Shown piece after piece: positions 60,865-63,512 of a DNA stretch of 64,000 nucleotides. Below the pieces are notes generated by a model. That model was not told the origin of the DNA and made no database searches. It saw nothing but the letters and a program-made list of their open reading frames with translations. The stretch is from assembly GCA_009833045.1 (NCBI GenBank), contig WUUP01000008.1, positions 124,001 to 188,000 of the forward strand, written 5' to 3'. Position 1 is the first letter of the stretch; each line of letters begins with the position of its first letter. Origin of the DNA: Saprospirales bacterium GYS_P2D (GTDB taxonomy: Bacteria; Bacteroidota; Bacteroidia; Chitinophagales; Saprospiraceae). Position numbers and translations under genes: made by a program.

Positions 60865-61623
60865 TTATTGTTCTTTCGGTAGTTTTCTGATGTTCAGCAC
60901 ATTCACCATGCAGCTGCGCATGTCACCTGCAGTGAGTACGAAGTTTTGTGCTACGGTCTCTCCATCAGCATATTGAGCCGCTTTCCATTTAGGCATATTG
61001 CAGACGGCCTCGATCAGGATGGCGTCTGTAGCTTCGTCGTCTGTAGTGTTTTGAACCTTTACGTCAGTGATATGGCCCGATTCATCTACAGTGAAAGCCA
61101 TCGCCGAAAGTCCATGCTCCCTGAATATATCAGTTGGTATATCCATCACACCTTGCTCTGATAGATAGGCTTTGAGTTCTTCTGGGGTGCCAGGATATTG
61201 AGCATCTATCATGGGATCGATAGTGATGTCATATTCCATGAGTTGAGCGGTATTATTCTTCAGATTATTCTCTGGTATATAGCTGATTTTGATATTGATA
61301 TCAGAGGCATTGTCGGCGGCCAGTATCGCATCGAGTTGAGCTTGATTTAGCAGCTCACTATTTCCATGTAGGAGTTTATCTTGACCATTGATCTGGACAG
61401 TGACGGTTACATCGAGGACCTCTCTGATCCATTCTGATTTGTGCTGCGGATGGAGATCGCTGATAGTTTTGACTGTAGTCAATGCGCCTTGATTGATAGT
61501 CATTTTGGGATTGACCCGGTGGAGCTCATAGGAGACAAAATCATTGGTCACCTTAGAGCTCAGTAGGTCCACATCAGCCTGAGCATAGAGAAAGAAGAAA
61601 TAGACAAGAGCGAGATATTTCAT
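60865..61623 (-). CDS. TonB C-terminal-like periplasmic protein
   Basis: The 252-residue protein has a signal peptide (about 1-16). Its C-terminal part resembles the TonB C-terminal fold: FTVDESGHITDVKVQNTTD, then LIEAVCNMPKWKAAQYADGE. The N-terminal part is unrelated to known TonB-type sequences. Such proteins in Bacteroidota can be energy transducers or stand-alone binding proteins, and the lack of a membrane anchor favours the latter. It is a single gene. Confidence 0.75.
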   Translation of the reverse strand: MKYLALVYFFFLYAQADVDLLSSKVTNDFVSYELHRVNPKMTINQGALTTVKTISDLHPQHKSEWIREVLDVTVTVQINGQDKLLHGNSELLNQAQLDAILAADNASDINIKISYIPENNLKNNTAQLMEYDITIDPMIDAQYPGTPEELKAYLSEQGVMDIPTDIFREHGLSAMAFTVDESGHITDVKVQNTTDDEATDAILIEAVCNMPKWKAAQYADGETVAQNFVLTAGDMRSCMVNVLNIRKLPKEQ

Positions 61624-61782
61624 GATAGTGATTTCAATAGGTAGTAAGATATGGATTTTAAACTATTTTGAAGCTCCATTTCTTATAAAACGTATTTGTA
61701 TTTACAGCTCATTAACGATTTTCTATCCCTTAGAGGCATTATCAGAGTATACTCACTGAGGTAAAGTGATCGTTTCTCCTGT

Positions 61783-62670
61783 ATGAATTCACATCGAGCA
61801 TTTTTATTATTCCTGATTCTTTCATTCTTCACACTGATCTTGTCATGCACTGATGATGAGATGATGGATGATCCAGGGCTGGATCCTATGGTAGCGTATA
61901 TAGAGACGGAGATTGCTTATGGCAATGATCCTCTACAGACCTATGATCTATACCTCCCCGCTGGTCGCTCTGAGAGCGATACCGATGTCATCGTACTAAT
62001 ACATGGGGGTGGCTGGACAGGAGGTGACAAGGTGGATGTGGCGGGCATCGTAGATTTACTCCAAGAGACCATGCCTGACCATGCCGTCATCAATATGAAC
62101 TATCGACTGGATATCGATCCTACGGACTTATTTGGAGATCATCTGGCTGATGTCGAGAGTGTAGTGCGTCAGGTCGCTGATCAAAATGAGGACTGGCAGG
62201 TCAGTGAGGAGATGATCATGGCTGGTGTCAGTGCCGGTGGTCATATGACTCTACAGTACGCCTATGATAATAATGTGAATGACTACGTCAAGGTGGCCTG
62301 CAACATAGTAGGACCGACTTACTTTTTAGATCCAGCCTATACGATGACTACTGTACCGACTCATGCTGCGACTTTAGTGGCCATAGTTGCTTTCACACAG
62401 GTAGCCCTGTCTAATGCAGAATACTACGATGCGGTGAGTCCACTCAAGGTAGCGACAGCTAATGCTGTGCCGACTATACAGTTTCACGGAGATATGGATC
62501 CACTCATCCCTGTATCTCAGGGCCAGCTGTTAGCCGATCGCCTCAATGAGCTAAATGTACCCAACGAACTCATCATCTACGAAGGTGAGGGGCATGGTTG
62601 GTCCGATCTCGCTAATTGGACAGTTACTGCCGTAAAGTTTAAAGCCTTCGTAGAAGCGAATATGGATTGA
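61783..62670 (+). CDS. Alpha/beta-hydrolase lipoprotein (esterase)
   Basis: The 295-residue protein has a lipobox (LILSC, C22), then an alpha/beta hydrolase with HGGGW (74-78) as oxyanion-hole motif, and the nucleophile S150 in GVSAGG. An acid in HGDMDPLIP and the catalytic His in GEGHGWSD complete the triad. This is a carbohydrate-esterase or feruloyl-esterase-like group. The substrate is unknown. The lipobox places it on the cell surface or periplasmic face. Two repeat tracts follow it. Confidence 0.9.
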   Translation: MNSHRAFLLFLILSFFTLILSCTDDEMMDDPGLDPMVAYIETEIAYGNDPLQTYDLYLPAGRSESDTDVIVLIHGGGWTGGDKVDVAGIVDLLQETMPDHAVINMNYRLDIDPTDLFGDHLADVESVVRQVADQNEDWQVSEEMIMAGVSAGGHMTLQYAYDNNVNDYVKVACNIVGPTYFLDPAYTMTTVPTHAATLVAIVAFTQVALSNAEYYDAVSPLKVATANAVPTIQFHGDMDPLIPVSQGQLLADRLNELNVPNELIIYEGEGHGWSDLANWTVTAVKFKAFVEANMD

Positions 62671-62758
62671 TTTGAGTGTTCTGGTTTGGTGAGTTTTCTT
62701 GTTTAATTGGTTGATTTAAGTGTTCTGGTTTGATATGTGTTTTTGTTTAATTGGTTGA
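62671..62758. repeat. Two copies of a 44-bp tandem repeat
   Basis: The units share GTGTTCTGGTTTG and GTTTAATTGGTTGA, at 62671-62714 and 62715-62758, with a few differences. It starts right after the esterase stop codon. No coding or structural role is visible. Confidence 0.85.
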
Positions 62759-62796
62759 ATTGTTTTGATAGTTCAGTTGTAGATTTTTGTTTTGCT

Positions 62797-62918
62797 AACT
62801 GACTACTGACTACTGACTACTGACTACTGACTACTGACTACTGACTACTGACTACTGACTACTGACTACTGACTACTGACTACTGACTACTGACTACTGA
62901 CTACTGACTACTGACTAC
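62797..62918. repeat. Heptanucleotide tandem repeat, TACTGAC x16
   Basis: Sixteen perfect copies of TACTGAC (62804-62915) are flanked by partial copies. The unit contains TGA on the plus strand and TAG on the minus strand. Since 7 is not a multiple of 3, stops occur in all six frames. The DUF4252 stop codon (62917-62915) is formed at its edge. Confidence 0.97.
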
Positions 62919-63394
62919 CTCCCCTGATTCGCCTTCACGAGATGTGGTCCTATTTCTTTAGTAAATCTCTCTTTCGACATTTTACCGATGAGAGCGACTA
63001 TGACAGACTCTTGATCGGCACCGAGAGACAGTACGATTTCATGGATATTGTCATCATCCTCTCGAGTATATAGATCGATATTAGTTTCGTCATCACGGAG
63101 ATAGAGGTAGCTCAGGTATCCATGAGTCTCCGCATGAGACCGAAAGTCTTGATATATCTGATCATCTTGTTCTTCATTGTAGAGGACTTTGATACGTCTC
63201 ATACCTTCTGACATAGATTTGACGACTTTTCGATCTTCTTTATCAATGAATGGCATGGCGGCCCACTTTGGGAAGCTCAGAGCGAAGTCTACATCTTGAG
63301 AATGTGCATTATAAAAGCTCTGATAATTGCCTCGCTGAGAGCTACAGGACGATAGTAGCAGGATCACTGTGATAGCGTATAGGATAGATTTCAT
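62915..63394 (-). CDS. DUF4252-like lipoprotein
   Basis: The 159-residue protein has a lipobox (LLLSSC near residue 17), then a DUF4252-type domain with SMSEGMRRIKVLYN, SYLYLRDDETNIDLYTRED and IVALIGKMSKERF. The family is common in Bacteroidota and of unknown function. The match is from memory and moderate. Its stop codon lies at the edge of the heptanucleotide array, so array changes could have altered the gene's 3' end. Confidence 0.8.
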   Translation of the reverse strand: MKSILYAITVILLLSSCSSQRGNYQSFYNAHSQDVDFALSFPKWAAMPFIDKEDRKVVKSMSEGMRRIKVLYNEEQDDQIYQDFRSHAETHGYLSYLYLRDDETNIDLYTREDDDNIHEIVLSLGADQESVIVALIGKMSKERFTKEIGPHLVKANQGR

Positions 63395-63512
63395 TTCGGC
63401 AGATTGTAAGAGATAGACGGAGCTATTTTTTGTTTTGTTACAGTTAAAAATAGGAGAATAATCAGGAGCGAGCTATTTTACCTTCATCTGTTCACTAATA
63501 AATCCTTTCGTA

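Follow-up and report, generated by a model that had tools for sequence, protein, structure and literature searches.

The region under study lies between two converging genes in a 64,000-nt stretch of DNA, analysed as a whole and referred to below as the window. On the plus strand, a gene coding for an alpha/beta hydrolase of 295 aa (61783..62670; BD-FAE, E 2.5e-29) is followed by a T/G-rich leader, which fills the space from the hydrolase stop to the repeat (62671..62797; 71 T, 32 G, 19 A, 5 C), and by a perfect heptamer array (62798..62918). On the minus strand, a DUF4252 gene of 159 aa (62915..63394; Pfam PF14060, E 1.5e-11) converges on the array; ORF and frame analysis places its TAG stop codon at 62915..62917, within the array sequence, and its final codons are AATCAGGGGAGGTAG. 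The leader is repetitive on the plus strand: TRF detected a 44-bp repeat of 2.1 copies with 87% matches (62667..62758), a search with the leader consensus gave two matches (62676-62712 and 62720-62756), and a 35-bp block adjoining the array (62760..62794) was found by genome search at four places.

The array was characterized by TRF, by unit counting and by comparison with shuffled sequences. TRF assigned to 62798-62918 a period of 7, 17.3 copies and 100% matches, with a score of 242, the top among the 32 rows reported for the window. Sixteen complete TACTGAC units, located at 62804-62915, are contained within this longer, perfectly periodic run. A chance origin was rejected, as TACTGACTACTGAC occurs 15 times in the window and never in 100 shuffles. 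Each of the six frames contains 5 or 6 stop codons within 62798-62918, as is to be expected of any array of 7-bp units with a stop on each strand, 7 and 3 having no common factor. The array is thus placed between the stops of two converging ORFs and overlaps one of them, the right-hand stop being at distance -1 and the left-hand gene 133 bp away. On all these points the preliminary description, which had reported sixteen perfect repeats that end a gene, stops in all six frames and the DUF4252 stop at the array edge, proved accurate. The array is an intergenic heptamer simple sequence repeat of a known bacterial kind: a 7-bp unit in several tandem copies, placed between genes and accompanied by dispersed sister arrays.

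These sister arrays were searched for in the same genome, which is assembled in 28 contigs for 4.95 Mb. TACTGAC arrays are also found at C21, C22 and C23, and GACTAAA arrays at two places, one of which adjoins a TACTGAC array. The leader consensus has 12 matches, at six dispersed places, and a heptamer array lies beside every one of them, although the units differ (TACTGAC, TACCGAC and TAACTGC); a further unit, TACTGCC, follows the 35-bp block at one of its four locations. The array is the right-hand end of a composite repeat, made of a T/G-rich leader and an array, of which other copies exist in the genome. Apart from TACTGAC and GACTAAA, all these units were reached by way of the leader or its adjoining block, so the frequency of leaders among arrays cannot be read from them. 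At C27:229k (L229 600-1300), a long spacer contains degenerate T/G-rich repeats followed only by degenerate heptamers, and is perhaps a decayed relative of leader and array.

The number of copies is to be read as an assembly value and is uncertain, because the draft assembly breaks inside arrays of this type. Contig ends fall within the TACTGAC arrays of C21 and C23, which may therefore be a single array cut by the assembler, and at C25 (L227 1273-1369) a run of 97 N separates two stretches having 124 bp of TAACTGC array in common, likely a single array shown twice by scaffolding. These observations, together with the same count of 16 at C22 and C27, leave some room for a true array which is longer or variable, a reading to be held only tentatively. 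The arrays of C22 and C27 are internal to contigs and have different flanks, which weighs against it and led to rejection of the array as an assembly artefact. A k-mer ceiling behind the equal counts at the two loci was also considered; the left-hand TAACTGC run at C25 reaches 18.3 copies, which does not fit one simple ceiling.

Conservation was evaluated in the genus, in the family and beyond. Among 100 genomes searched, (TACTGAC)3 was found in two, the parental one and G026, from another genus of the same family, i.e. in 1 of 99 relatives; it was absent from both congeners, G001 and G002, and TRF found no period-7 array in the corresponding stretches of either. The congeners are diverged, with DUF4252 36-52% identical. 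In G002, the glycosyltransferase and DUF4252 ORFs abut end to end; in the window, about 2.05 kb more (60865-62914) separates the stops of the two genes, made up of a 252-aa ORF with no Pfam match, the hydrolase gene, the leader and the array. In G001, DUF4252 and DUF819 are still adjacent. An array region of G026 matches at least 42 places in its own genome, counting itself, on the 40 candidates scored out of 154. A genus mate of G026 gave a single match, at 65%, which did not help the comparison. The spacers of G026 (L044-L053, L396-L413) carry many heptamers, such as TATTGAC, CTATCAG, GATGCGA and GTTAAAG, often in opposite orientation on the two sides.

In a wider species collection, (TACTGAC)4 was found in at least 119 stretches. 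The titles among the matches listed (80 of at least 119) include Cyanobacteria, Bacteroidota, Chloroflexi, planctomycetes, Proteobacteria, Firmicutes and others. The longest array in this analysis, at about 744-1092 of L149 (Peptococcaceae bacterium BRH_c8a), is made of about 49 TACTGAC units, one of them shortened; there the left-hand gene is the nearer one, against the polarity described below. Three loci with TACTGAC arrays (L086, L099, L154) are titled Klebsiella pneumoniae MAG, a title suspected to be a wrong label or the result of contamination.

The position of the arrays relative to the flanking genes was evaluated in the 80 listed genome-contig loci of at least 119, which contain 81 TACTGAC arrays. 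Genes were called by a longest-ORF rule made for this analysis; 68 arrays were flanked by called genes on each side, and the other 13 were dropped before the sign test. The ...GAC end usually lies close to a gene edge, either start or stop, and the other end does not: the right-hand gene is the nearer in 57 cases, against 11 for the left-hand gene (p 1.3e-8). On the same 80 loci, other ORF rules gave 53:12, 58:9 and, for the strictest, 43:17 (p 0.0011); exclusion of Cyanobacteria left 32:11, or 25:13 with the strictest rule (p 0.073); and, of 51 genomes, 40 agree with this polarity, 8 oppose it and 3 are tied. Distributed over groups, whose labels were assigned by hand from record titles, agreeing and opposing arrays of these 80 loci are 35:1 in Cyanobacteria, 8:0 in Chloroflexi, 8:3 in Bacteroidota, 5:1 in Proteobacteria, 4:3 in the planctomycete/verrucomicrobial group, 2:3 in Firmicutes and 1:1 in Actinobacteria; three single arrays in other groups agree, as do the three of the Klebsiella-titled MAG, whose designation as mislabelled is a guess. 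The polarity is thus strong in Cyanobacteria and weaker or absent in some groups. Replicate counts gave 14:3 in contigs of a viral collection and 19:4 in G026, where one of 24 arrays lacks a neighbour. In the parental genome, all eight arrays with two neighbours fit, one of them by a single base and two sharing one spacer.

Similar counts were performed for other units. In the viral contigs, TAACTGA gave 38:19 (p 0.016), CAATAAC 14:6 (p 0.12) and TAATGAC 8:5 (p 0.58); a G-rich control, GGGGATT, gave 2:4 by the A+C strand, unlike its published polarity, on 6 usable arrays, too few to weigh. When period-7 runs were collected without naming the unit, 418 were found, and the 32 of them located within ORFs were set aside; the strand richer in A+C points into the nearer gene in 242 cases and away from it in 89, or 150:72 without TACTGAC, in loci which had been chosen by five heptamers, so that the units found are no random sample. 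The excess is present both at stops (135:45) and at starts (107:44), with a few small classes opposing it (AATCCCC 1:3, AGCCAGT 0:2, AATTCCC 1:2, AATAGTC 1:2). Among 24 spacers containing arrays of both orientations, 20 are arranged outward, 3 inward and 1 is mixed. Other repeat periods, used as a control, were too few (2:2 for period 8, 4:0 for 9, 1:1 for 10, 7:3 for 11, 0:2 for 12). Local base composition was considered as a cause: at edges free of arrays the A+C fraction is 0.546 at starts (n=1115) and 0.476 at stops (n=1039), so that composition could contribute at starts and points in the wrong direction at stops. Taken as sequence comparisons, these counts suggest that heptamer repeats tend to one orientation relative to the nearest gene. 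The strand could be fixed by a polar DNA process, or by selection at the RNA level, exerted on 5' leaders and 3' trailers independently.

Two orthologous cyanobacterial spacers allowed arrays to be compared between closer relatives; at both, the heptamers differ between relatives 79-95% alike, and the flanking genes are constant. For the spacer between a permease and an ATPase gene (L414-L421), 12 loci were taken and 11 genomes searched, of which 9 matched, one by a 59-base piece only; the resulting set covers eight cyanobacteria including the query's own (Tychonema, Microcoleus, Lyngbya and an Oscillatoriales MAG by title), with permease DNA 82-95% identical to that of the query. Four of these spacers contain, respectively, TAGTCAG x8.4; AGTTGTT x9.1 with AACAGTC; TTCCTTC; and TCAACAG x4.1. 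The remaining four contain AATAACC x5.4; no run; TAGTCAT x14.3 with ATTACCA; and short TCTTCCT/CTTCTTG runs. Related types are shared between spacers: at least three have TTC-rich runs and two the TCAACAG type. The TTCCTTC runs preceding a start in L416 contravene the A+C rule. The second spacer (L423-L432) is present in 10 of 10 genomes, next to a gene 79-95% identical to the query. Here L428 and L429 have a single TTAGTCAG immediately behind the stop, and TAGTCAG arrays of 3.6 and 7.6 copies are found in L424 and L423, respectively; another genome carries GTTATTT x8.4, and in the remaining five the runs are short, of other types or absent. This pattern, seen in a phylum other than that of the window, would fit a seed followed by its amplification, a direction suggested by the comparison of extant sequences, in which contraction of an array to a single unit would give the same picture. 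At several of these loci, the first TAG of the array is the gene's own stop codon. The differing heptamers of these close relatives, together with the presence of (TACTGAC)3 in 1 of 99 relatives and in neither congener, lend indirect support to the earlier suggestion that the array is young or under active change.

A role in expression was also evaluated. The preliminary description had proposed a possible transcription barrier, which the analyses did not bear out: no intrinsic terminator, i.e. a G+C-rich stem followed by a T run, is present in 62500-63100, and predicted RNA folding is no better than that of shuffles on either strand (z 0.12 and 0.40). No known RNA family was detected in 61600-63500 at E up to 1. 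As to a contingency repeat, the array comes after the coding portion of DUF4252 and has stops in every frame, so that a changed copy number would not alter the protein; promoters were scanned by consensus only. G-poor, C-containing RNA is associated with Rho, and a DUF4252 transcript extending past the array would be A/C-rich and G-poor (71 A, 32 C, 19 T and 5 G over the 127 nt of the leader), with little predicted structure in the leader on this strand. The region might on these grounds be a selected 3'-end element between converging genes, such as a region where Rho would terminate DUF4252 transcription. This is improbable, given the missing intrinsic terminator, the occurrence of arrays of the same class next to start codons and the replacement of heptamers between relatives.

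The array probably grew in place from a short seed located at the 3' end of DUF4252. The seed would have been amplified locally, through unequal exchange or slippage during replication, with coding sequence as the boundary of amplification at gene edges; being outside coding sequence, the array would have been retained, and would so have come to supply the DUF4252 stop codon. Local amplification is supported by the sister arrays of the parental genome, whose units are identical or different, by the leader copies at six places, each beside a heptamer array, by the single TTAGTCAG of L428 and L429 compared with the TAGTCAG arrays of L424 and L423, by the different heptamer runs of the eight permease/ATPase spacers, and by the lack of an RNA family, intrinsic terminator or excess RNA structure in the intervals searched. 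We infer that slippage was the engine, that the array has little or no function, and that it shares the history of the cyanobacterial spacers. For the window array, such a history is weakened by congeners which are diverged and lack the array, and by a seed-to-array direction which, in the cyanobacteria, is itself deduced from present-day sequences. In addition, slippage alone leaves the single orientation relative to the nearer gene unexplained.

This orientation is what a strand-polar DNA process would account for, either an end extension linked to repair or a polar slippage anchored at gene edges, so that the G+T-richer strand would lead 5'->3' outward from the nearest gene edge, irrespective of transcriptional direction. 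It would agree with the 57:11 ratio of TACTGAC arrays in the 80 of at least 119 genome-contig loci, with the excess among all period-7 runs at stops and starts, with the opposite composition of array-free stops and with the prevalence of outward pairs. Under such a process one strand rule would hold for unrelated heptamers in many phyla, at starts and stops alike, and spacers would be repeatedly overwritten from their edges; the process would act on DNA because units unable to form quadruplexes are included and the rule is blind to transcription. Both the process and this generalization are rather unlikely: no bias is seen in Firmicutes (2:3) or in the planctomycete/verrucomicrobial group (4:3) among the same 80 loci, the TTCCTTC runs of L416 and, on its 6 arrays, viral GGGGATT run opposite by the A+C rule, and the single seed of L428 and L429 is more simply explained by local duplication. 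Least probable of all is that leader and array form a small MITE-like mobile element, inserted beside stop codons and carrying the array with it. The six dispersed leader copies, each with an array, and the abutting genes of G002, compared with the additional 2.05 kb of the window with the array at its right edge, would be in keeping with an insertion; however, leader copies vary in number, the arrays behind them vary in unit, and the extra DNA also contains two ORFs. Local amplification of a seed is retained as the preferred origin.

Taken alone, the array is an ordinary repeat which happens to supply a stop codon. Heptamer arrays are, as a class, widespread, unexplained and disruptive for assemblies, and the array of the window offers a way into them. 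A polarity common to several phyla, combined with fast replacement at fixed gene edges, leads to a testable rule for their origin. Since TACTGAC, which has no GG, follows the rule published for G-rich heptamers, G-quadruplexes cannot be the general cause of the polarity.

Among known systems, the STRR heptanucleotide repeats of cyanobacteria are short, tandem and dispersed; by this general description they resemble the present array, with different units and in a different phylum. TAACTGA repeats are described in MacGregor 2015 (PMC4679880) from Beggiatoaceae, Cyanobacteria and some Bacteroidetes; in one Beggiatoaceae genome they are mostly located just before start codons, and a few Bacteroidetes have long arrays, with contigs ending in repeats. 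The likeness lies in intergenic heptamer arrays, mixed with other heptamers, in which contigs often end; the differences are that TACTGAC is no rotation of TAACTGA and that the window array is placed at a stop, not before a start as in the main organism of that study. The G-rich heptamers GGGAATC and GGGGA(C/T)T of Xanthomonas and Nostoc lie closer to the ORF on their 5' side, whichever way that ORF is oriented, according to Rehm 2015 (PMC4692102), which discusses quadruplex effects, cites the idea that heptamers favour polymerase slippage and mentions Calothrix heptanucleotides. A search of the open-access literature found no earlier report of polarity for units without GG. The intergenic heptamer kind and the polarity of G-rich units were already known; the present analysis adds the polarity of TACTGAC and the heptamer differences at orthologous spacers. 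The G-rich heptamers of PMC4692102 share with the present arrays a dispersed intergenic location, with one neighbour closer depending on the strand, at starts and stops, and with some repeats overlapping a stop codon; unlike them, TACTGAC and its complement GTCAGTA contain no GG, and so form no such G-quadruplex, and the phylum is a different one.
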